Assembly: GCA_902625885.1 (NCBI GenBank)
Contig: CACODE010000013.1
Coordinates: 1-41,890, forward strand
DNA length: 41,890 nucleotides
Direction of reading: 5' to 3'
From: an uncultured Candidatus Poseidoniales archaeon
Lineage (GTDB): Archaea; Thermoplasmatota; Poseidoniia; Poseidoniales; Poseidoniaceae
In this document: positions 28,374 to 41,268 of the stretch, one piece after another
Layout: each line of letters opens with the position of its first letter
Position numbering within the stretch: the first letter of the stretch is position 1
Notes under the pieces: generated by a model
What the model was told of the DNA's origin: nothing
Seen by the model: only the letters and a program-made list of their open reading frames with translations
Database searches by the model: none
Program-made: the position numbers and the translations under genes

Positions 28374-28459
28374 GCAATTCGGCTTTTGGAATGCCGGTTG
28401 TATGAACATCGTACCATTTCCCTTATGAGGCATCAGACGCACCCAAACGCGTGAGACCC

Positions 28460-31400
28460 ATGCGGAGAGGCTCAAAATCCAATGCGGCCGCGCTTCGTCC
28501 AGCCTTGGGCGGGCGCAAGAAAGCCCTCAAGTCTCTGCTGCTAACGGTGTTGATGCTGACGTCCACACTGGCCTCCATTCAGTACTCTGCCGTCAACGTT
28601 CAAGCCGCTTCGGACCAAGACGGCGACGGCCTCACTTACGGCCTGGAATACCTCATGAACACGCAGCCAAACGACCCGGACTCGGACAACGACGGTCTGC
28701 CTGATGGATGGGAGTGGAAGTACGGCCTTGACCCGCTTTCCTCAAACGGAGACGACGGCGCTGTCGCAGACCCTGATGGTGACGGCATGTCCAACCTGCA
28801 GGAATACCTCTACCTACAGCCCACGGGCTGGGACAACACCAACACCGCTTCGGTGTTGGACAACGGCGTTTGGTGGAACGGCACCATTCCCGTCAACGAT
28901 TGGAACGAAGAAGACGCGCTTCAATTCAACCAACCAGGATGCGGTGATTCTGGTGCTGACGGTACGGGGAACATCATCTTGTGCGACGAAGATCCTGTCG
29001 GCAACATTTGTACCAACGGTTTTGACGATGACAAGGACGGTTTCGTGGATTCGGCAGACCCCGACAACGACGGCGATGCAGACTGCCTCTCAGACGACGA
29101 CGATGGCGATGGTGTCGTCGACGAGGACCCTGCTGGTTGGGACACCGACGGCGACGGCATGAGCGACGGTTGGGAGGCCGCCAACGGCCTCAACGCTACA
29201 TCTCCCTCAAACGCCGATGGGCCCAACGGGGACCCCGACGGTGATGGCCTCAACAACCTCTTGGAATTCGTTAACCCGACATGGACCACCATGTGCGGCT
29301 CCTCACCGTGTTTCCGCAACGGGCCTGACGGCGCCGTGACGGAAACCACCTCCCCTTGCGACCCCGTTCAGGGCGTTGGTCCCGGAGGCTGCGCCACGTA
29401 CACGGCTGAAGTGGACGGCATCACATCAACCAACCCTCAGATCGCCGATACGGACGGTGATGGGCTGAACGATTCCTACGAAGCCCTTACCCTGCTTACC
29501 GACCCGACATCCTCCGATACTGACAACGATGGCATCAGCGACGGTGTCGAAGTCAACGGTGCCTACGGCAACCCTGCTCAGGCCAGCGACCCTCGAAACA
29601 ACAACACCGATGGCGATGCTTTTGATGACGGGGAAGAAGACACGAATTTCAACGGCGTGCTTGACCCCGGTGAAACCGACCCCACCCGAAGAGAAGATTC
29701 GGGCGATGCTGACGGGGACGGCATACAAAACTGGGAAGAAAACCTCACCTGCACCCTGTGGAACGTCGCCGACACGGACTTTGGCGGGATAGACGACGGT
29801 CAAGAACGCAACATCAGCCACGGCACCGACCCGTGCGATTCCTTGGTCAACTTCGAGACAACGTTCGTCCAATCGCTGAGCGGCAGCCGTCTTGAGGTCG
29901 GCAACGGCTCCGGATTCAACCCTGGTGGCGGCGTTGGATGGTACAATGTATCCGGCGTCTGGGAGTCTTTCGCCTACGCCACGGTCGTCAACAACATCCT
30001 GCAGGGCGTCTCGAACACCCCGTCCGGAACGGCGACCCAAGTGGCCAACAGAAACGGTTCCTTCTGCCACACCGACGCCGTCAACGCCGGGACCCTCGGT
30101 TCGACACAGCAGTATTGCGATGACGACTACGAAGACAGCGACGGGGATGGCTTGGCCGATTGGCAGGAACTTCTCGGTACCTTTGGTTGGTTCTCGAACC
30201 CGAGCATCGCCGACAGTGACGCTGACGGCGTGAACGATTTTGATGAGGTTCAGGACAACACCGACCCGAACCAACCCTGCACCAACCTCTTGGACGATGA
30301 CGGCGATGGCATCAACAACTACTTCGAAAACACCACGGGATGCGATCTCATTTATATTGGCATCACCAACGGATCCGTGGACGTTTGGGTGACGAGTTCA
30401 ACCGCATTTGACACGGATCAAGGTGGGGTTGACGACAGAAGCGAGTACTTTGACGGGACCAATCCGGAAAACGACCCCTCCGACGATATCCAGCCGGACG
30501 ATTTCGACGGCGACGGCATACCAGACGCTGTTGAAAATCAAACCGGGACGGATTGGACGAACCCGGACACCGACGGCGGCGGCATGCTTGACGGCGATGA
30601 ATGCCCCGATATTTTCTGGTTCCTCAACTGCGCTGGTGCACCGTTCGATCCGTTTGACCCAACCGACGACATCATGAACACTGGCATCGTGTTCTACGCC
30701 AACAACACCTCTGGCGTTGTTGACCTTAATCTCGAACACCGCTGGCGAACCATCACCAACGACTTCTACACCGGCACGAGCTACGCCCACCTCGAAAGCG
30801 TACACCCGTCCGAACCCTTGGCCGTCCCCGTGACCAACCTCACCCACCTTGCCCCCCTCTCTTTTTCGAACTCGACCGTTGAGTGGAACGTCCAGTACAC
30901 GCAACCGATCACTTCAGCCCAATTGCCCGCGCCGTCCTATTATTCCAACGTCTCGTTTTACTTCGAGCCCACGGCCAACATCTCGCGAACCAACGACACC
31001 CATATCCTCAATGTCGATGGCGGAGCGGTCAACCAAGTTGTTTACCAGCAACCCGAGTATTACTTTGACTGGTCCACCCTTGCGGCCACGACCGTTCCCG
31101 GTCAGGGCTATCCGTACGAACTGCTGTTGGATGAAGAATTCACGAACGCCTCATCGGAGTTGTCCTTGGTCAGAAACGTGACGTTCGGCGTCATTTCTGA
31201 CGCAGGCGCTACCGACGCTTACAGCACCGCCCTTGCCCTTGAAGATTTCATCACGAATGGCAACGCCTCGACCGAATTCAAGCGGAACTACAACGGCTCT
31301 GGCACCGTGAGTCCGGTTGATGTTTCGTTGAACATCCTCGAGGCCATAAAGGAAGGGTCTTGCAGAGAATTCAACACCCTCTTTGTGACAATGGCCCGTC

Positions 31401-34400
31401 TTGCAGGCTTGCCTGCGAGGCAGGTAACGGGGTACATCGGTGGCACATGGACCGGGGATGGCTATGCTGTTTACTCGTCCGACGTCGCCACGTGGTCTGA
31501 AGTTCGCCTTCAACAGAACAGCGCCAACGGAAACACGGACCTTGGTTGGATTGCGTTTGACCCTTGCCCTCCTCCAGAGGAAGTGGAAATCGTCAATCAA
31601 ACCATCTCCACCATGACGGTGGCTCGCGACGGAACGGACACCATCACCGTCACGGGGCAGCTCAGGTACGTGGCCAACGGCACACCGGTGCAAGACATAC
31701 GCGTCTTCTCCTACCTGACGCCAGTGGCCGATGCTGAACTCGTGCCTGGCCCAGGAGCTTCGCAAGAGCGACTGCTCGACGAGAACATTACCGATGCCAA
31801 CGGGACCTTCACCTTGAAAGGATTCCCCGGTGCGCCATCCGCTCCAGGCATGCACAACATCGTCGTCGAGCATCGGCAGTCAGGCTATGTCTCAACCGAC
31901 GGTGTGATTTACGACGGCTTTGTGAACCTCACGGAAAACGCAACCCTCAACCACACCGCTCCTCTTGCCATAAACGCCCCAATTGCCGGCGCAGGAGCGA
32001 CGACTGTTCTCGAGGGTCGCTTGGTTTTGGCGAACGAACCGATCGACGAAATCACCAACATGCCAAACCAAACCGTTTGGCTTTCTTACACCTCTTCGGT
32101 TGATGGAACTCAGAACCTTTCCACGCAGACGGACACCGCTGGTTCGTTCGCCTTCACGCTGAACCTCAGCGAATCCGAAACCCGAGGCAACCTCTCGGCG
32201 CTCTTGGGCTTCTCGGGTTGGCAAGACACCTCCGTGGCGGGGGCCACACCGGCAACGTTCCACCTCAACCCGACGACCACTTCCATCGTGCTGAACGTCA
32301 CCGACGCTCCAAACCTCACCGCCATAATAGAAGGGCCACTGGGCAACAACAGCCAACTGCTGCTCGGGAACGACATTTGGGTCAACGGTAGCGCCCTTTC
32401 CTTGGGCGCATCGCCCGTGGCCTTATCGGGCGATCTTCAGTTCTCTATTCGAGCCAACGATTCTGGTGATGAATGGTACGAAGTGTTCAACCTCAGCGTT
32501 ACCGGCACGTTTTCTGTTCAGTTCCTTCTTCCAACCAATGTCATGGTAGCGGCCGGAGAAATCGAGACACGGCTCAGGTTCTTCCCGTCCACGCTCCCGG
32601 CGACCGATGACGCCGATGTCTCCACCGGAGTGCCTTACTTCCTGCAGGGCTTGTTGACTTTCCAAGTCCAAGAATCGGCGCAGGTCCGGGGCCAGAACGC
32701 CCTCCTCTCGGTGCAGATCAACGATCATCGAGGCGTACCGGCCGGTGCCGAGATTCTGGGCAATTACGACTTCTCGTTCAACGGCACGTGGTTCAACACA
32801 ACCGTGGACCCAACCTTGGACCTGCTTGAGGTGACGCTTCCGCTCGACGCAAATTTGCGCTCCGGCGATTACCCCATCGACATCTCCTTCAACGGCTCAG
32901 ACTTCTACCAAGCCTCGGCGGGTAACGGCACGATTCGGGTCATGGCCGACATCGGATGGAACCTGTCCATCGGTCAAGATTGGACCTTCATGGGCAACTC
33001 AACGCGACTGTTCGGGGATGTTTATGACGCCGTCTACTTGACGCCCGTGGTCAACAACAGCACGCTCATCACCGTTTCCTTGTTTACAGAACAAGGCCCC
33101 ATTGATGTCGCCCAATCAAGGCTCAACAACAGCACCGGAGCGTTCGATATCCCCATTGCGATGCCGACAAACCTCCCTTCCGATGCCTACGAATTTGTCG
33201 TGGACTTTGACTTCCTGACGGAGGCACCCGTCGGTGGAGCCTACTACACCTACGTCGATCCTTCGGTCCCTCCTGCCCCACCAACCGCCATTTCCACCCT
33301 CGGTGGTATCATCACCGAGGTGGTGGTCGAAGCAGAACGCTCCGCTTACATCGTCGAGATGAACGACACCATCACCCTGACATCAAAAATCACCGATATT
33401 GCCGATGGTTCCAACATCACCGGTGCGAGCGTGGACTACATTTGGGACTTCGGCAACACCAACGTGAGCCTCGGCACCGCCACGACCAACAGCGAGGGCA
33501 ACGCCTCTCTGCCCTTCACGCCATCCGGTATTGCTCCGGGATACTACGATGTCGGCATCGTGGTTCAGGACGACCTCACCGCTGCTCTTGCCGCTGGCAA
33601 CGCTCGCCGATTCGGCAACCTCACCGTGGTCAACGTCACCGTGCAAGTGACCAGCGACATCACCCTGACCGCCGTGCCAAGCACCGTCACGGCCGGCGTG
33701 CCGTTCCGAGTGGTGGGGCAGGTTGACGACGGCGAAAATGCAAGTCGTGGCCTCATTTCTGCCGTAAGACTCAACGTGTTTTGGTTGGAAAATCCAGATG
33801 AACTGCTGCTGAGCAACTTCGCCACCCAAAACAACGGCAGTTTCAACATGACCGTGCCTACCGATACCGCTGGAAACGGGACAACTCGGGGCCCTCACAC
33901 ACTGGTCATCAGTGTCGTGAACGATTCTTCGCCGTTCTACCTGACGGCTACCGCACAATCGCCGGTTCAAGTCATGGGCGTCTCTCGGCTGGAAAACCTT
34001 CAGCCGCTCAACGCCATCGTCATCAACCGTGGAAACACCGTCAACATGTCCGCCAAACTGGTTGAGGCATCCGACATGTTCGCACCGCTCTCGAATTACG
34101 AAGTCGGTCTTCGGTTCCACGAGACCTGGTTGTCTCCACAGAACAGCGATGGGGAAGGGTTTGCCAACTTCTCCTACAGCGTCCCCTACGATCATCCCCT
34201 CGGCCTCATCGTGGTCCAAATGGTGTTCAACGGTTCGACCGATCTATTGGCCACGAGCGCGAACCTCACCAGCATAACCGTACGCTCACTGAGCGTTCTT
34301 GTCATGGACAGCATCACGGCCAATCCAGTTGCGGGAACGGAGTTCAACATCAGCGGACAAATCGTTTCCGACAACGGCTCTGGACTGGTGCAACGGGACG

Positions 34401-37384
34401 GTAGCGTGCTACCCAACGCCAACATCCTCTTTTCCATCAACGGCCAACCTACCGGGTTTACAGCAACGGGCGGTGCCGTCGGCGTCAATGGCTTCTGGAA
34501 CGCCACGGTTCGACTCGGTGAATCCTTCGCAGCCGGTACGCATCTCATGGAGGCGACCTACATCCCCAACGTCAACTACTACGTTGGGTCAGAGGCCAAC
34601 GCCAGTTTCGACTCGCGCGGATTCTCGACGATGAACTTCGTTGTTCCTACCCTCGACGGCATCGGTCAACCGTCATTGAACGACCGGACGGAGCGAGGCA
34701 CGCCGGTGGAATTCTCCGTGCTGTTGCGTGACAACCAAGGCCTGCCGATGGCCAACCAGAGCGTCACCGTTTCCCTACCGGCCACGCTTTCAGGAAGCAC
34801 GCCGATACAAACAACGGTTCTCACCGCTTCCAACGGCTCGGCTTGGGGCAGCCTCACCGTTCCAAGCAACATGAGCGTCGGCCCAACCGACATCCACGCA
34901 GCCTACGCCGGTATTCCTGGAACAACGGGCATTGTTGGAACAAACACGAGCTCTCAATTCGTTGTCCTCGGCCAAACAGAGGTCGTCATCCAGCAAGCCC
35001 CAAGCGTGCTCGTCGCCGGTGATACCATGCTGGTGAACGGCACTTTGCTCGATGACCTTGGGCTTGTCCTCCAACGAGGCGACACACCTTCAACAGCCGT
35101 TGTTTACTTGCTGATCGATGGCGTTCCCGTAGCCAGCGTTGAAACAAGCAACGTGTCCGGAGCGTTCGCATTTGCTTACACATTGCCGGAAAATACCGCA
35201 GCAGGTCCTCATCAACTGTCCGTTGAATTCCGTGGCGGCCGCGAGTGGGTGGACCCCGTTGGTTCAGGTGATCTCAACAACCCCGAGTATTACATGCCAA
35301 GCTCCGCCACGGTCGAATTCAACGTTAGCGTCCCAACCAAGATTCTGCTCTTGACCGCTACCGGTGACGCCGACCGGGAAACCACCATGACCATCCAAGG
35401 CCGGTTGCTCGATGTCGTTGATAACCCACTCTCAGGTTTGACGGTTGAGATTTGGCTCGGAGGCCAATGGCTCACCAACACGACCACTGACGAGCTTGGA
35501 GAATTTTCTGCCGTTCACCCCGTACCTGCCGACGCACCGTTGGGTCCTGTGGTGCTCGAAACCAGGTTCACCGGTACCGTCGCTTACCTACCGAGCAACG
35601 CTTCTGGTACTTGGCAAATATACAGCCAAATCCTTGTCACGGTCGACGTCGAGTCTCCCTTAGCCGTTAACCAAACCGTCACCATCACAGGTGCCGTTCT
35701 GGACAACCAACTCAACGGGATACCAAACCACCAAGTTCAACTCGTGGTGGAAGGCATTGTCATTGCGACCTTGGACACGGATCAAAACGGCGATTACACC
35801 TACGACTGGGTCGTTCCTGACATCTTCGACTTCGGTACCCGTACGCTGGTCGCAGAGGTTGCGCCGCAAGGCTTCTACCGCAGCGGTGAAGGCAACACGA
35901 CGTTCTTCTTGTCCCACCGCTCGTGGGTCACCCTCCAGTTTGAGGATGGGACCGACGCAACCCGTGGCGATGTCTGGGCCATCAACGGCAGGCTTTACGA
36001 CTTTGACACCGTTGACCGGGACGGTTTGGTTGGTTTCGAACTCTCGATCAAGTTGGACGGGAACACGCTGTCCACCGTGACCACCGGCGTTGATGGTGCT
36101 TGGAACGCTGTGGTGCCGGCAACGTCGGACCTTGCTCGTGGTGAGCACACCATCACGGTTGAGTTTGCTGGAACGCAAGCGCACCTTCCAGCCGACGCCG
36201 AGAGTCGCGTGCATGTTTGGGCGAATCTATTGATTCAAATCGATGAGGTAGCGCAACCCAACTTTGTCACTCGCAACGACGGTTCGGTCAACACGATTTC
36301 GTTCACGGGTTCCGTCCGAGAGATCGGCGGGACAGGCGAGGTGTTCGAAAACCTCGTGATGTACATCGGGAACGGCTCCGACTGTCAGGGCGGGCGAGAA
36401 GGGGCGTTTTGTTTCGATTTGAACGGCCTCTCGTGGACCAACGGAAACTTCTCCCTGGACGCCACGGCTCCAAAAGAGTTGAGCGTAGGGGCACAAAGCG
36501 TCTTTATTGACATCGCCAGAAATGACACGCTCTACCTCAATGCTGCCAGCGTAAGTCAAAACATCTTTTTGCAGGTTGACGCCACCATTGACGTTGACAT
36601 CACACCCATTGTCGAAGACGAACAAGAAGATGTTATTGTGTCCTTAACCATTGAGGCTACAGACACCAAAGAGGGTGTCGAGAAGGTTCAGGTTTCGGTC
36701 TACATCTACAACGCCACAGGAGCCCAGATTCGGTCCCTCAGCAAAGAAACAACCGAAGACGGGACCGTCCGCTTTGAATTCAACAGCACGGATTCTTACG
36801 GTGATACGGACGCTCAGGGTGGACAAGTGACGCTCAAGATCACCATCGATGACCTCAAGCTTTCTCAACGAACACGGGACGACTTCAAAGCCCGAGACGA
36901 CGCTGGATTTGCGCCGGACTACATCTATGCCGAAGACCAAGCCGCTACACCATGGTGGTCTTACGGCATCGTTCTCTTGCTTGCGTCGATTGCCGTTGCC
37001 GGGGCTGTCTTGTATCGACGACGAAAACAGGCCGACGACTTGCTCAAAGATGCGGCTGAAGTCTTTGCTTACACGGCCGAGTTGCTGGCGGCAGGCGACG
37101 CCATTCGAGAAGCCATCTTTACCTGCTACCAAGACCTCTGCGGATTGCTCCAACAGCGTGGTTTCCTGCGACGGGACTTTGAGACGGTCCGTGAGTTCGA
37201 GTTCGCCATACGTCAAGCCATGCAGGGTGTTTCAGAGGATGCGCTGACGGCCCTTGACAACACGTTTGAAATGGCTCGCTACAGCCGAGAAGAAATGGGT
37301 CCGCAGCATCAGGATGTTGCGGTTCAGGCGTTGAACCGCATGAGCAGTGAAATCGCCCAGATGCAGTCCGTTCCGCAGCGCTAA
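28460..37384 (+). CDS. Giant surface protein: TSP3-type Ca-binding repeats, transglutaminase-like domain, Ig-like repeats, DUF4129-like cytoplasmic tail
   Basis: About 2,974 aa from ATG 28460 (GTG 28451 is also in frame). The order is as follows. A signal segment (LLLTVLMLTSTLASIQYSAV) comes first. Thrombospondin-type-3-like Asp-rich repeats (DxDxDG) cover about residues 48-730. A transglutaminase-like domain follows at about 900-1040, with Cys968 in GSCREFNTL and Asp1034 in IAFDPC. The HAW-type His is replaced, the site reading SSDVATWSEV with Ala1010. About 1,750 residues of Ig/carboxypeptidase-regulatory-like modules follow, then one membrane helix (YGIVLLLASIAVAGAVLY, about 2,836-2,855). 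A cytoplasmic DUF4129-like domain ends it (IREAIFTCYQDLCGLLQQRG, then FETVREFEFAI). It is probably a Ca-stabilised adhesin. It ends 3 bp from the stop of the convergent next gene. Confidence 0.88.
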   Translation: MRRGSKSNAAALRPALGGRKKALKSLLLTVLMLTSTLASIQYSAVNVQAASDQDGDGLTYGLEYLMNTQPNDPDSDNDGLPDGWEWKYGLDPLSSNGDDGAVADPDGDGMSNLQEYLYLQPTGWDNTNTASVLDNGVWWNGTIPVNDWNEEDALQFNQPGCGDSGADGTGNIILCDEDPVGNICTNGFDDDKDGFVDSADPDNDGDADCLSDDDDGDGVVDEDPAGWDTDGDGMSDGWEAANGLNATSPSNADGPNGDPDGDGLNNLLEFVNPTWTTMCGSSPCFRNGPDGAVTETTSPCDPVQGVGPGGCATYTAEVDGITSTNPQIADTDGDGLNDSYEALTLLTDPTSSDTDNDGISDGVEVNGAYGNPAQASDPRNNNTDGDAFDDGEEDTNFNGVLDPGETDPTRREDSGDADGDGIQNWEENLTCTLWNVADTDFGGIDDGQERNISHGTDPCDSLVNFETTFVQSLSGSRLEVGNGSGFNPGGGVGWYNVSGVWESFAYATVVNNILQGVSNTPSGTATQVANRNGSFCHTDAVNAGTLGSTQQYCDDDYEDSDGDGLADWQELLGTFGWFSNPSIADSDADGVNDFDEVQDNTDPNQPCTNLLDDDGDGINNYFENTTGCDLIYIGITNGSVDVWVTSSTAFDTDQGGVDDRSEYFDGTNPENDPSDDIQPDDFDGDGIPDAVENQTGTDWTNPDTDGGGMLDGDECPDIFWFLNCAGAPFDPFDPTDDIMNTGIVFYANNTSGVVDLNLEHRWRTITNDFYTGTSYAHLESVHPSEPLAVPVTNLTHLAPLSFSNSTVEWNVQYTQPITSAQLPAPSYYSNVSFYFEPTANISRTNDTHILNVDGGAVNQVVYQQPEYYFDWSTLAATTVPGQGYPYELLLDEEFTNASSELSLVRNVTFGVISDAGATDAYSTALALEDFITNGNASTEFKRNYNGSGTVSPVDVSLNILEAIKEGSCREFNTLFVTMARLAGLPARQVTGYIGGTWTGDGYAVYSSDVATWSEVRLQQNSANGNTDLGWIAFDPCPPPEEVEIVNQTISTMTVARDGTDTITVTGQLRYVANGTPVQDIRVFSYLTPVADAELVPGPGASQERLLDENITDANGTFTLKGFPGAPSAPGMHNIVVEHRQSGYVSTDGVIYDGFVNLTENATLNHTAPLAINAPIAGAGATTVLEGRLVLANEPIDEITNMPNQTVWLSYTSSVDGTQNLSTQTDTAGSFAFTLNLSESETRGNLSALLGFSGWQDTSVAGATPATFHLNPTTTSIVLNVTDAPNLTAIIEGPLGNNSQLLLGNDIWVNGSALSLGASPVALSGDLQFSIRANDSGDEWYEVFNLSVTGTFSVQFLLPTNVMVAAGEIETRLRFFPSTLPATDDADVSTGVPYFLQGLLTFQVQESAQVRGQNALLSVQINDHRGVPAGAEILGNYDFSFNGTWFNTTVDPTLDLLEVTLPLDANLRSGDYPIDISFNGSDFYQASAGNGTIRVMADIGWNLSIGQDWTFMGNSTRLFGDVYDAVYLTPVVNNSTLITVSLFTEQGPIDVAQSRLNNSTGAFDIPIAMPTNLPSDAYEFVVDFDFLTEAPVGGAYYTYVDPSVPPAPPTAISTLGGIITEVVVEAERSAYIVEMNDTITLTSKITDIADGSNITGASVDYIWDFGNTNVSLGTATTNSEGNASLPFTPSGIAPGYYDVGIVVQDDLTAALAAGNARRFGNLTVVNVTVQVTSDITLTAVPSTVTAGVPFRVVGQVDDGENASRGLISAVRLNVFWLENPDELLLSNFATQNNGSFNMTVPTDTAGNGTTRGPHTLVISVVNDSSPFYLTATAQSPVQVMGVSRLENLQPLNAIVINRGNTVNMSAKLVEASDMFAPLSNYEVGLRFHETWLSPQNSDGEGFANFSYSVPYDHPLGLIVVQMVFNGSTDLLATSANLTSITVRSLSVLVMDSITANPVAGTEFNISGQIVSDNGSGLVQRDGSVLPNANILFSINGQPTGFTATGGAVGVNGFWNATVRLGESFAAGTHLMEATYIPNVNYYVGSEANASFDSRGFSTMNFVVPTLDGIGQPSLNDRTERGTPVEFSVLLRDNQGLPMANQSVTVSLPATLSGSTPIQTTVLTASNGSAWGSLTVPSNMSVGPTDIHAAYAGIPGTTGIVGTNTSSQFVVLGQTEVVIQQAPSVLVAGDTMLVNGTLLDDLGLVLQRGDTPSTAVVYLLIDGVPVASVETSNVSGAFAFAYTLPENTAAGPHQLSVEFRGGREWVDPVGSGDLNNPEYYMPSSATVEFNVSVPTKILLLTATGDADRETTMTIQGRLLDVVDNPLSGLTVEIWLGGQWLTNTTTDELGEFSAVHPVPADAPLGPVVLETRFTGTVAYLPSNASGTWQIYSQILVTVDVESPLAVNQTVTITGAVLDNQLNGIPNHQVQLVVEGIVIATLDTDQNGDYTYDWVVPDIFDFGTRTLVAEVAPQGFYRSGEGNTTFFLSHRSWVTLQFEDGTDATRGDVWAINGRLYDFDTVDRDGLVGFELSIKLDGNTLSTVTTGVDGAWNAVVPATSDLARGEHTITVEFAGTQAHLPADAESRVHVWANLLIQIDEVAQPNFVTRNDGSVNTISFTGSVREIGGTGEVFENLVMYIGNGSDCQGGREGAFCFDLNGLSWTNGNFSLDATAPKELSVGAQSVFIDIARNDTLYLNAASVSQNIFLQVDATIDVDITPIVEDEQEDVIVSLTIEATDTKEGVEKVQVSVYIYNATGAQIRSLSKETTEDGTVRFEFNSTDSYGDTDAQGGQVTLKITIDDLKLSQRTRDDFKARDDAGFAPDYIYAEDQAATPWWSYGIVLLLASIAVAGAVLYRRRKQADDLLKDAAEVFAYTAELLAAGDAIREAIFTCYQDLCGLLQQRGFLRRDFETVREFEFAIRQAMQGVSEDALTALDNTFEMARYSREEMGPQHQDVAVQALNRMSSEIAQMQSVPQR

Positions 37385-37901: not shown

Positions 37902-39974
37902 TCATTCGTGCTCAAGTGTTTCGTCGCGCTCAACCTTTGCGAAAAAACGGCGAGCGAACCGGTGGGTGGCCTCGCTATTTTCTGCTTCGTACATTCGCAA
38001 ATCTGCAGGGAAACATTTCGTGTAGGTTCTGTCCGTCACCCGCCGGTCAAGCAACAGGACAAGCGCCCTGTCTGCAACGGACCGTATCGGTCGACCCATG
38101 GCCTGCAATATCGAGTTGATCGCCGGTTGCGATACCGTGTACCGCCAAGCCAAATTTCGGCCAAAGCGCTCCTCAGCATAAGATTTCAACGCTTTTGAGA
38201 GGACAGACGGTGGTGAGTTGGGTATGCCGATGCACACCACGGCGTCCAGAGCGCCGCTGTGATAGTCCACGCCCTCGGATAGCCGGGCGCCAAACACGCC
38301 GGCGAGTAACACTTTGCCACCCGCCGCTTTCTGTTCCAACAACCGGTCCACGATTTTATCAAGATCGTTTTTGGTCCAATCGCGGTCCTCTTTCATCACC
38401 TGCCGAACACCTTTGAAATTGGCATCGAGGACGATTTCGTTGAGCATGGCGTACGATGGGGCGAAAATAGCAACGTTGCCCGGCGATGCATCGATGAGGC
38501 CCTGAATGTGGTTGCGAATGTGCTGCGTGTTGCTCGCCCCGCGCTCCGTGTATTTCGTCGTCACGTTGCTTCCTACGACAACAGGACGGCGTTTTGCGGC
38601 AAAGGGTGAGGGATAGGCTTTGGTTGTCGTGTTGTTTGCAGGCAAGGCGAGCAGATGGGCGTACATTTCGGGTGGGTAAAGGGTGCCCGACATCAGCAGC
38701 GAGCCGCCCGACTGTTCAAACACGGGCTTTGAAACCAGCCCCGGATCAAGCAGGTGCATGGTCAGTTTTCCTTCGCGACCTTTGGGTGAAAAGACGATGC
38801 ATAGGGCGGTGGTTTGGCCAAAGCGATGAACCGATTGCAGAATGTGGCCCACCCTGTGGGCATCCGGTTCGGACGTCTCTTCATCGCTTTCTGCTTCGAC
38901 CTGAACGGTGAACAGCGTGCTGGCCAATTGAGCAAGCCGATCCTCTTTGGCAGGGTGTTGGGTTGTTTCGCCGGTCGTGCTGATGCGCATCTGGCCTGTC
39001 AACCCTTCAACCTCATCGCAGGCCGTGTGCAACAGACCGGTAAAATCGTCGATTTCAACCCGGAGTTCCTCTTCCTCGGGTGTCGTTTCGTGATAAGTTG
39101 AGAAGCGAGCGGTAAGTTTCGCTCTGTAGGCCTTGATGACTTCAAAACTCCAACGCACGGCCTCAAGCAGTTGAGTCGTTGACGGGGAAGGGTCTCGCTT
39201 CACGGCGTTCTCAAGGTTGCCCATGTGCTCTTCAAGCTCCATTGCTGCGTTTCGCACGATGGTCGGCGTGATGACGCGTTCCATGGTCATACGAATGCGG
39301 TCGGGGAGGTTGTGCGCCTCGTCGATGATGATGAGGCTGTTTTGGAGCGTGACACCCATCGCTGGCAAGGAACTTTCCCGAACCTGTTCGGCGAACACGT
39401 GGTTGTAATCGCACACCAGAATATCGGCTTCTTTTACCGTTGAGCGGCAGGTCTGCCAAGCACAAACGCCGACGGACTTGGCCCGGACAAGGGTCTCTTC
39501 AACGTGACGTGGCTGGTGGAGAATAAACGACTTCAACGACTCTTTACGCTCAAATTTTGTCGCCTCTTCGCTCCCTGTTTCGCACATGCAACGGCCCGTG
39601 AACGGGTCCAACACTTCGCACATGGATTCCCGTCCGATAACGTCAACCACCCGAAGCGGGTAATCTTCGCCAGGAAGGTTTGCGTTTATTTTTCTCACCG
39701 TGTCAACCACAATTTTGTGTTGGGACTGGCGTCCGGTCAGAAAGAGCACGTGGGTTCTCACGGAACGTTGGCGCGCAACTTCAACGGCAGCAGCCAGCGC
39801 CGCTGCGGTCTTTCCAATACCGGTTGGTGCCGCAGCGACATGAAACCCACGTTCGGAAAGCGCCAGCGTGGCGTCGGCGATCATCTCTGATTGTCCGGGG
39901 CGAGGTTGCGGGTGAGCAAGAAACGGTGTCTTGCTGGAACGAGCACCGTTCAACGCTTCGTTCATAGGAGGCAT
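37902..39974 (-). CDS. XPD/Rad3-DinG family iron-sulfur DNA helicase
   Basis: A 690-aa superfamily-2 5'-3' helicase. Walker A is AAPTGIGKTAAAL (from residue 48). The iron-sulfur insert supplies cysteines at C119 (SMCEVLD), C129/C131 (GRCMCE), C171 and C176 (GVCAWQTC). The DEAH box is LIIIDEAHNLPD. Later motifs include GGSLLMSGTLYPPEMY, GARLSEGVDY (motif V) and AMGRPIRSVADRALVLLLDRR (motif VI). The domain order and iron-sulfur cluster match archaeal XPD; DinG is the bacterial counterpart. It should unwind damaged or branched DNA in repair. The ATG at 39974 follows an AGGAGGG site by about 10 bases and sits in a GGCATGCC palindrome. The unknown 156-aa gene follows on the same strand. Confidence 0.9.
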   Translation of the reverse strand: MPPMNEALNGARSSKTPFLAHPQPRPGQSEMIADATLALSERGFHVAAAPTGIGKTAAALAAAVEVARQRSVRTHVLFLTGRQSQHKIVVDTVRKINANLPGEDYPLRVVDVIGRESMCEVLDPFTGRCMCETGSEEATKFERKESLKSFILHQPRHVEETLVRAKSVGVCAWQTCRSTVKEADILVCDYNHVFAEQVRESSLPAMGVTLQNSLIIIDEAHNLPDRIRMTMERVITPTIVRNAAMELEEHMGNLENAVKRDPSPSTTQLLEAVRWSFEVIKAYRAKLTARFSTYHETTPEEEELRVEIDDFTGLLHTACDEVEGLTGQMRISTTGETTQHPAKEDRLAQLASTLFTVQVEAESDEETSEPDAHRVGHILQSVHRFGQTTALCIVFSPKGREGKLTMHLLDPGLVSKPVFEQSGGSLLMSGTLYPPEMYAHLLALPANNTTTKAYPSPFAAKRRPVVVGSNVTTKYTERGASNTQHIRNHIQGLIDASPGNVAIFAPSYAMLNEIVLDANFKGVRQVMKEDRDWTKNDLDKIVDRLLEQKAAGGKVLLAGVFGARLSEGVDYHSGALDAVVCIGIPNSPPSVLSKALKSYAEERFGRNLAWRYTVSQPAINSILQAMGRPIRSVADRALVLLLDRRVTDRTYTKCFPADLRMYEAENSEATHRFARRFFAKVERDETLEHE

Positions 39975-40007
39975 GCCACGGCGACCCTCCTAAAGGATTG
40001 GCATGAA

Positions 40008-40249
40008 GGTCACAGGTTTGACCGCTTGAACTCGGTGTGCCCAGAAATGTGGGGGCTGGGCACGGTGGAACCACCACATCAACTGATGGGAGTGGAATCT
40101 GGGCCTCCCTGGCCGTCGTCCAGGGAAGCGTGTGGGGGTGTTTGGTTTTGGGAACCAAGGCCAAGGCGTGCACGACGGGCACGCTCACACAGCGAGACAA
40201 AGCTTCGCAAAACAGGCCGGGCCTGCGAAGCCTCAAGGGTGGCATCACC
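40008..40249 (+). ncRNA. Candidate structured non-coding RNA with kissing loops and a pseudoknot
   Basis: The gene-free gap 39975-40303 contains a chain of perfect hairpins. They are: 40008-40012/40019-40023 (5 bp); 40037-40044/40056-40063 (8 bp); 40106-40112/40120-40126 (7 bp); 40142-40147/40153-40158 (6 bp); 40166-40171/40179-40184 (6 bp); 40202-40209/40224-40231 (8 bp); and GGTG-GCAT-CACC at 40238-40249. Helix 40130-40134/40186-40190 encloses two of them. Loop CCGTCGT (40113-40119) is the exact complement of loop ACGACGG (40172-40178), a 7-bp kissing interaction. Loop bases ATGTGG (40047-40052) can pair with CCACAT (40074-40079), making a pseudoknot. Three stems extend by a T-G pair only when read as plus strand (40036/40064, 40141/40159, 40165/40185), which favours that strand. 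RNase P and SRP signature sequences are not seen. No clear promoter; family unknown. Confidence 0.6.
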
Positions 40250-40303
40250 AAGGTTGTATCCTGAGTTTTGCCAATTCATCCCATCCCCTCCAGTCTCTCA
40301 CCA

Positions 40304-40678
40304 TCATTCTTGGTATTCGCTGCGTCGTATCGTTGAAGCCCTGGACGCCTCCACGGCTTCTTCGAGTGTGTTATCGATCGGTGCCATTTCAGCAACGGCT
40401 CGCTTGATGTAGAGTTTGAGCCCCTCTTGGGCTGCGTGCTCCGGGGTTATGCCCCCGAGTTCATACAGCTGACCCAGACGTTGCTGATCAGCTCTGCCGA
40501 GCGGTATTCGAATGGACCTCATGTCCGCCAACTTTGGTTGGTTGTGAAGGAACTCCTGAATGGCCAGTCGTACGACATCGGAGCGATTTCGGGCCCCGTC
40601 AATGCCTATTCGGGCATCCAACAGGGCGAGATCCTCCTCAGTAATTCTGAGCGAGACGGCGCTGGTTGGCTGGTTCAT
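40304..40678 (-). CDS. Ribbon-helix-helix (CopG-like) DNA-binding regulator
   Basis: A 124-aa protein starting at ATG 40678 after a GAGGAAGTGG ribosome-binding site. Residues 6-45 fit a ribbon-helix-helix domain: a strand (AVSLRITEEDLALLDARIG), then a helix with RSDVVRLAIQEFL. The C-terminal part (MRSIRIPLGRADQQRLGQLY, then GGITPEHAAQEGLKLYIKRA) looks like a second, similar strand-helix-helix unit, so the protein may be a tandem RHH. It is probably a transcription regulator. The longer frame to 40816 covers the promoter and is rejected. The likely structured RNA and the helicase gene lie downstream on the same side. Confidence 0.85.
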   Translation of the reverse strand: MNQPTSAVSLRITEEDLALLDARIGIDGARNRSDVVRLAIQEFLHNQPKLADMRSIRIPLGRADQQRLGQLYELGGITPEHAAQEGLKLYIKRAVAEMAPIDNTLEEAVEASRASTIRRSEYQE

Positions 40679-40721: not shown

Positions 40722-40824
40722 CGTATTGCATATGATGACAAATTGTAATTTTCTGTAATACAACCGTGTGTGAGTCGCTCATGGGCCCCGAAGTTTGAAA
40801 GACAAGTCGCCAGCAACCACCACC

Positions 40825-41268
40825 ATGACCCTCACCCCAAGCCGTGGCCTCTACCTCTACCTCGAAACGATGCGAATCGCTTTTGATGACGCCATCGTTA
40901 CCGACGATGAGGCCCAAATTCTACGCATTCTTGCTCAAGCGCTTGGTGTTGCGCCCTCGGACACGGCCGAATGCCGAGCGGTTGTTGCGGGTGAGGTGGC
41001 CTCGCCTTTTGACGACGGTTCAGAGTTTGGCGGTCACCAAGTCGGTGATGCGACCACCTACCAATCAGCTCTCATAGCAGCCCTAGATGACGATATCATC
41101 AGCGAGGACGAGTGGGCCATGCTGGATCATCTTCGCCACATCATCGGTTTGCAAGCCGACGAGCACGCCCTCATCGAGGAATCCATTCGGGCCATGAGCG
41201 AAGTTGATGAGCTCGGCCAACGCCGTGTGGAGCGACTCGAAAGGTACCTCACCGTGTGCACGTTTTGA
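40825..41268 (+). CDS. Small acidic protein with two TerB-like helical repeats
   Basis: A 147-aa protein from ATG 40825; the frame also opens at a TTG at 40795. Two similar segments are visible: AFDDAIVTDDEAQILRILAQ near residue 18 and ALDDDIISEDEWAMLDHLRH near residue 88. Each has an acidic turn (D-D-x-I-x-x-D/E-D-E) followed by an amphipathic helix. This recalls TerB-like or EF-hand-like domains. No membrane segment is seen. It is divergent from the RHH regulator and precedes gdhA by about 107 bp on the same strand. The function is unknown. Confidence 0.65.
   Translation: MTLTPSRGLYLYLETMRIAFDDAIVTDDEAQILRILAQALGVAPSDTAECRAVVAGEVASPFDDGSEFGGHQVGDATTYQSALIAALDDDIISEDEWAMLDHLRHIIGLQADEHALIEESIRAMSEVDELGQRRVERLERYLTVCTF

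Follow-up and report, generated by a model that had tools for sequence, protein, structure and literature searches.

Background

In the dual-function RNAs SgrS/SgrT and RNAIII/delta-haemolysin, the open reading frame (ORF) and the RNA parts of the transcript are largely separate. The repY-repZ system of plasmid ColIb-P9 is a leader-ORF/pseudoknot switch, in which a small upstream ORF and long-range loop pairing control a downstream gene and the ORF is a leader lying beside the pairing partners. To our knowledge, few cellular genomes have a whole small-protein gene that overlaps a conserved, pseudoknotted RNA domain. PMC10724649 lists titles by Asano and Mizobuchi (1998) on repY-repZ among its references. 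Within Marine Group II, PMC5069720 describes Thalassoarchaea ncRNA 1 (Tan1), which is abundant in Candidatus Thalassoarchaea, is 229 nt long and has a conserved, complex secondary structure. In the literature searched there was no report of the element described below.

The locus and its neighbouring genes

The window, meaning the whole stretch of 41,890 nucleotides that was analysed, is contig C13 of genome G000, a 70% complete genome of a Marine Group II archaeon. Below, f1 is the window's family within the order and f2 the other family, g-numbers denote genera and L-numbers denote copies of the locus. We take f2 to be Thalassarchaeaceae, and Candidatus Thalassoarchaea to be this sister lineage.

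An initial annotation of the window had described a dense hairpin array between a ribbon-helix-helix (RHH) gene and an XPD-like helicase gene. This position was correct, as the array occupies the 329-nt gap (39975-40303) separating the two genes. The minus strand encodes both neighbours as well as an ORF (40079-40279) that contains most of the array and that the initial annotation had missed. The locus contains the following features.

37902..39974, minus: XPD/Rad3/DinG-like superfamily 2 helicase gene, lying downstream in the apparent operon
39982..40001, minus: conserved element CCAAUCCUUUAGGAGGGUCG in the ribosome-binding region ahead of the helicase start, from alignments and direct reading
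40079..40279, minus: small ORF of 66 codons and a stop, MNWQNSGYNLGDATLEASQARPVLRSFVSLCERARRARLGLGSQNQTPPHASLDDGQGGPDSTPIS, on comparative evidence
40280..40303, minus: leader GGUGAGAG...GGAGGGGAUGGG with the Shine-Dalgarno-like GGAGGGG, candidate 5' strand of helix P1, from alignments and direct reading
40304..40678, minus: RHH (CopG-like) regulator gene, lying upstream in the apparent operon

The RHH gene product matched Pfam RHH_1 (E 8e-4, score slightly below the gathering cut-off), and the helicase product matched Helicase_C_2, DEAD_2 and HBB as well as TIGR00604 rad3, the last under its cut-off. The helicase was present in 19 of 19 genomes searched, as a single match in sixteen, in two pieces in G059 and G062 and over two contigs in G037. 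Across the 135 f1 copies of the small ORF that were fetched, an RHH match was on the strand of the ORF in 129, undetected in six and never on the opposite strand. Both neighbours were matched in 125 of the 135 copies, always on the small-ORF strand, and a script placed them on the expected sides in 122 of those 125; L108, L109 and L113 failed its side rule because the open frame extends back into the RHH gene. One neighbour was undetected in ten of the 135 copies, in some owing to the end of the stretch or contig.

The small ORF is preceded by GGAGGGGAUGGG. The sequence GGUGAGAG (window 40295-40302), immediately past the RHH stop codon, was mostly conserved in both families with the exceptions of L198, L263 and L275, and is too far upstream to be a usual Shine-Dalgarno sequence of the small ORF. 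Two features were noted by eye ahead of the RHH gene, a TATA-like TTTATAT (minus, 40721-40715) roughly 37 nt from its start codon and an inverted repeat, TTGTA-N11-TACAA, at 40743-40763; they may be a promoter and a self-binding operator for the operon. No promoter was apparent by inspection between the RHH stop codon and the small ORF. Elsewhere in the window, a plus-strand ORF of 2977 aa (28451-37384), in which numerous Asp-rich repeats of a calcium-binding-like type and, close to the C-terminus, a membrane segment were seen by eye, probably encodes a very large surface protein, and a divergently transcribed 157-aa protein (40795-41268) had a weak TerB-like match (E 0.0024, below the cut-off).

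The hairpin array

The region 39975-40303 was scanned for perfect stems (6 bp or longer, loop size 3-15 nt), and 2000 dinucleotide shuffles served as the control. Five perfect stems of 6-8 bp were found where the initial annotation had placed them:

40037-40063: stem 1, 8 bp
40106-40126: stem 2, 7 bp, loop CCGTCGT
40142-40158: stem 3, 6 bp
40166-40184: stem 4, 6 bp, loop ACGACGG
40202-40231: stem 5, 8 bp

Shuffled sequences had a mean of 1.23 stems, and at least five stems occurred in 16 of the 2000. The exact 7-nt complementarity of two hairpin loops, also pointed out in the initial annotation, was confirmed and had a counterpart in three of the 2000 shuffles. Chance hairpins were ruled out by these two counts. 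Four of the five stems lie within the small ORF, and only the 8-bp stem at 40037-40063 is past its stop codon.

A search of the window with Rfam 15 gave no match in the array; its one match, to IRE at 39924-39948, was sub-threshold and fell outside the array, and the same search of twelve relatives gave none at E up to 1. No riboswitch family was thus matched, and the view that the array is neither RNase P nor SRP RNA holds. The models for these two RNAs (RF00373 and RF01857) had no match at the locus and found the genome's own copies elsewhere, at G000:C15 (226 bits) and G000:C1 (128 bits), respectively.

A conserved small ORF

Of 170 genomes of the family, 93 had the small-ORF product in a single-sequence search at E <=0.01, and of 318 genomes of the order, 135 had it with a 14-row profile at E <=0.001, all of them f1 among the matches listed. 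The close relatives that the small protein found in public records bear the names Poseidonia, Candidatus Poseidoniaceae or Euryarchaeota archaeon, which places the window in Marine Group II. In an unbiased set of 28 genomes of the genus, found by DNA similarity alone and including the window's own genome, the ORF was full-length in every case except L022, which is cut by a contig end. Fifteen f1 genomes with no small-ORF match were examined. The helicase was not found in nine, and in the remaining six the contig ends inside the helicase gene or shortly before it (G080 and G081 were judged from match positions), so that no intact locus lacking the ORF was seen among the fifteen.

The 79 distinct coding sequences had 61-67 codons. 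Forty-three non-redundant copies were uninterrupted through the aligned codons, while shuffling letters within columns put 0.50 stops in each. Pairwise gaps between similar copies were only 3, 12 and 15 nt inside the ORF and mostly 1-2 nt in the region after the stop codon; as copies were cut from the start codon to the first in-frame stop, their total lengths are multiples of three by construction, and so is part of this pattern. Over twenty copies the small-ORF frame had a pN/pS of 0.58 and the two remaining forward frames 0.91 and 0.96; a frame on the reverse strand likewise gave 0.58, yet with 34 stops in the twenty copies. By genus within f1 the ratio was 0.47-0.70, which is only moderately low. 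The start codon was conserved although its distance from the Shine-Dalgarno sequence varied by 0-3 nt, and two copies, L227 (g16) and L116 (g18), were frameshifted. Taken together, comparison among the relatives shows the small ORF to be a translated small-protein gene and provides the conserved, translated ORF expected of a dual-function RNA.

The protein features a conserved arginine-rich segment, ALRxRARxA. No Pfam family was matched up to E 1 by the window protein, a relative, another f1 protein or two f2 proteins, nor did the window protein match any NCBIfam family at that level. A search of 50,697 phage records for a phage source of the small protein gave no match at E up to 0.1. The AlphaFold model was a single helix (residues 10-41) of low confidence, with a mean pLDDT of 59.

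Synonymous constraint was assessed in 27 genomes, namely G032 and 26 from the genus. Mean pS was 0.63 for the RHH gene, 0.30 for the small ORF and 0.75 for the helicase gene, and the respective mean pN values were 0.18, 0.18 and 0.20. Around alignment codons 40-50 of the small ORF, pS (0.135) was lower than pN (0.181). Something besides the protein therefore holds the synonymous sites of the small ORF.

A conserved fold on the small-ORF mRNA

A consensus fold was derived from 97 copies that were codon-aligned in the ORF using no structural information, and yielded helices P2, P3, P4, P6, P8 and P7. Covariation was compared with 800 null alignments evolved on the tree, each column keeping its own number of changes; the helix-level test was confined to proposed helices and is more sensitive than an all-column scan. 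Hairpin P5 came from the stem scan and the alignment.

40240..40273, minus: P2, hairpin just past the start codon; covariation z 6.7 (P2a) and 3.5 (P2b)
40202..40231, minus: P3, 10-bp hairpin; covariation z 19.0
40165..40185, minus: P4, hairpin with a near-invariant stem; covariation z 2.1, p 0.03
40142..40158, minus: P5, variable hairpin, missing in several relatives
40104..40128, minus: P6, hairpin; covariation z 9.1
40071..40095, minus: P8, hairpin over the stop codon; covariation z 3.2; mutually exclusive with P1
40037..40063, minus: P7, post-stop hairpin whose loop, CCCCCAC, is C-rich; 96.6% paired, covariation z 19.4

None of the 800 null alignments reached the observed covariation for P3, P6, P7 or the loop-loop helix described below; these four covary. 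In P3 all ten pairs had changes on both sides (51 copies). Two pairs farther downstream, termed P9, had a covariation z of 3.2. An all-against-all scan of 326 columns with 100 nulls returned three pairs at E <0.05, all in P3 or P7. In an un-guided alignment of the P3-P6 core, built from 51 non-redundant copies of the kissing genera only, 91.0% of cells were paired, compared with 38.9-50.4% when partners were slid by 1-3 columns, and none of 500 shuffles was as high on any measure.

Helix P1, which would join the Shine-Dalgarno region to the last codons, was predicted in the consensus of 43 copies and absent from that of 97. It had no covariation support and its strands were invariant. A closing helix between the Shine-Dalgarno region and the element before the helicase start was also considered and gave no signal, because its two strands hardly vary.

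Comparison thus shows a conserved fold carried on the same mRNA as the small ORF (P2, P3, P4 and P6, then P7 after the stop codon), an RNA structure that is not explained by coding. The proposal of a new structured RNA is therefore supported as to a conserved fold and its covarying loop-loop pairing, but not as to a non-coding RNA that stands free in a gap without genes. Clear conservation of a protein at the codon level, which the initial annotation had regarded as fatal to its proposal, was found here, and the RNA structure survives it since both layers are under selection.

Kissing loops

The two complementary loops fall on codons of the small protein:

40172-40178, minus: kissing loop 1, CCGUCGU, in P4, on the codons of RARRA
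40113-40119, minus: kissing loop 2, ACGACGG, in P6, on the codons of DDG

The loop-loop helix covaried with a z of 4.8 over 97 copies, and 98.0% of its cells were paired in the 51 copies of the genera having it. All seven pairs were formed in 19 of 20 copies of g1, five of eight of g4, 37 of 41 of g18 and four of four of g3. These four genera together had 65 of 73 copies fully paired, as against 1.42 expected when synonymous codons were randomised with the codon usage of the helicase genes. Among non-redundant copies 44 of 51 were fully paired, by thirteen loop-pair combinations that included CCGUCGU/ACGACGG, CCGUCUU/AAGACGG, CCGUCAU/AUGACGG, CCGCCUC/GAGGCGG and CCGUCGC/GCGACGG and, in close relatives, CCGUUUU/AAGACGG and CCGCUUU/AAAGUGG. 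The variable residue of RARxAR was R, L, H or F and changed along with the partner codon, which indicates that the pairing is kept and not the residue.

Full pairing was found in none of 24 copies outside the four genera (g16, 0 of 19; g17, g2 and g6, 0 of 5). In g16 (L187-L206, L125) the loops are non-complementary and the stems stay, as does the ORF except in the frameshifted L227; P8 looks like a perfect hairpin over the stop codon in several g16 copies. Since kissing is missing in g16, g17, g2 and g6 while the ORF stays, the loop-loop interaction is not essential everywhere. Two loops with compensated complementarity are thus a property of g1, g3, g4 and g18, in which the comparison shows a loop-loop lock, and not of g16, g17, g2 and g6.

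The sister family

An RHH match was present just upstream in 12 of 14 f2/g5 loci having the helicase start, with a small ORF readable between the two. These small ORFs were named by position and by eye because the f1 profile recognises them weakly (E 1e-5 to 0.8). A profile from four f2/g5 small ORFs matched 86 of the 318 genomes of the order at E <=0.01 (83 f2 and three weak f1 matches), and over 339 genomes of the class, those of the order among them, there were 81 matches at E <=0.001, all in f2.

The segment GLRxRAxLSNAxGY (alignment codons 30-50) of nineteen f2 copies had a pN/pS of 0.31 with pS of 0.74-0.89, while the first twenty codons of these copies had pS of 0.26-0.35 and, on reading, hold a G+C-rich inverted repeat. 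The small protein is thus real and older than family f1, and the RNA layer differs in extent between the families. A post-stop hairpin of 8-10 bp was present in 18 of 20 f2 copies, and the span from the start codon to the end of this hairpin was 215-274 nt in those eighteen.

Operon gene order varies among genomes. In G039 and G044 (L258 and L259; genus g11 of f2) the RHH gene and small ORF are followed by a gene of about 980 codons (SRFERLTPFRVRDVLLVASHFDHYLLEESGYL...) and not by the helicase, which is about 3 kb farther on. Given the different downstream gene in these two f2 genomes that were checked, helicase control is not constant.

Interpretation

The reading that we prefer, though we put its chance of being right at about even, is a dual-layer gene within a minus-strand RHH–small protein–helicase operon whose mRNA fold acts in cis. 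The fold would act on its own mRNA and probably controls the translation or stability of its operon, making it a candidate switch that regulates a helicase operon of marine archaea. The kissing interaction would compact the coding region and may help the last codons (DSTP, 40082-40098) to pair with the start codon and ribosome-binding site of the small ORF, forming P1. In that state P1 would hold back the small ORF's translation and, through coupling, that of the next gene, and the ribosome, or the arginine-rich peptide itself, could open or hold the fold and so bring about release. Given the arginine-rich helix of the low-confidence AlphaFold model, it is an attractive idea that the peptide may bind its own RNA. 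Counting against such a switch are P1, for which covariation gave no support, and P8, which competes with it. A more far-reaching form is only tentatively put forward: the whole coding sequence would be one cis-acting RNA domain closed by the loop-loop lock, pairing would set the residues (R/L/H/F in RARxAR and D/E/K/G/S in the acidic tail), and the ribosome or a peptide binding its own mRNA would be the ligand switching the operon.

A somewhat unlikely alternative to cis action is a dual-function transcript, that is, a stable and abundant trans-acting RNA, processed or separately transcribed, whose ORF is also translated, and which could be Tan1 or its Poseidoniaceae counterpart. The compact fold followed by the strong hairpin P7 is consistent with this, and the small ORF and post-stop hairpin are kept where the downstream gene differs (L258 and L259). 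The 229 nt given for Tan1 in PMC5069720 fall within the 215-274 nt span of the eighteen f2 copies, but similar length is weak evidence. The absence of an apparent promoter of its own between the RHH stop codon and the ORF argues against this alternative, and the ORF is hard to explain for a purely trans-acting RNA.

It is less probable, and on the whole unlikely, that the structure serves the small ORF only, by slowing or pausing the ribosome or by protecting the mRNA from nucleases with no switching involved. Hairpins do fill the coding region and stand past the stop codon as this would predict, but neither stability nor speed needs an exact 7-bp loop match maintained through thirteen fully paired combinations.

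The free-standing non-coding RNA on the plus strand that was initially proposed is very improbable. Its stems and loops are self-complementary on either strand, and the RNAalifold energies of the two strands are close (-120.8 minus, -112.4 plus). The initial annotation had cited wobble pairs favouring the plus strand, which does not hold for the core in 51 relatives: P3, P4, P6 and the loop-loop helix had 105 G-U cells in the minus sense against 36 A-C cells, which would be G-U on the plus strand. Over 97 copies the G-U:A-C ratio was biased to the minus strand in P3 (86:25), P6 (47:23) and P7 (33:9). No clear minus bias was seen in P4 (42:43), P2 (30:38) or P8 (28:40), which is a point in favour of the plus strand, and the loop-loop helix had 32:31 with the non-kissing genera included. 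Folding z scores against 100 shuffles were -3.58 for the minus and -1.49 for the plus strand, and the ORF and both neighbours are on the minus strand. A plus-strand RNA was ruled out as the main reading by the wobble counts, the folding z scores and this gene arrangement, and the minus strand gives the best reading of the conserved RNA, as part of the RHH–helicase mRNA.

A structured non-coding RNA in which the ORF is a by-product of composition is barely tenable. The moderately low pN/pS of the f1 genera and the two frameshifted copies (L116 and L227) would fit it, but the uninterrupted frame, the gaps in multiples of three, the start codon kept despite the variable Shine-Dalgarno distance and the strong protein-level constraint on the f2 protein at the same place speak against it. 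The weakest alternative, a protein gene alone whose hairpins are a consequence of arginine and aspartate codons, agrees with a real ORF and with kissing loops that fall on RAR and DDG codons, but has next to no chance given helices that covary, a pS far under that of the neighbouring genes and full kissing at more than the level left by synonymous randomisation.

Comparison with known systems

The overlap can be traced over a family of uncultured ocean archaea, including a genus lacking the loop-loop pairing (g16), and the sister family retains the protein with freezing confined to the first codons. The locus is a natural experiment on the trade-off of RNA pairing against protein sequence, and it warns that an 'intergenic' region rich in hairpins can be translated.

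Archaeal RNase P RNA (RF00373) and SRP RNA (RF01857) are like the element in size range and in having a G+C-rich multi-helix fold. Tan1 resembles it in its Marine Group II origin, its 229 nt and its complex fold, but may be unrelated; it is presented as non-coding, with no mention of an ORF or kissing loop in the passages of PMC5069720 that were compared. If Tan1 were the element in the sister family, the RNA would already be known as a transcript, with its ORF and kissing loops unmentioned in that text.

As in SgrS/SgrT and RNAIII/delta-haemolysin, one transcript would combine an RNA function with a small protein. Unlike in those systems, the archaeal ORF and RNA parts coincide. The element shares with repY-repZ the translation of a small ORF, a loop-based long-range pairing and a downstream gene on one mRNA, whereas it differs in that the archaeal ORF spans the fold, its peptide is conserved and the locus is chromosomal.
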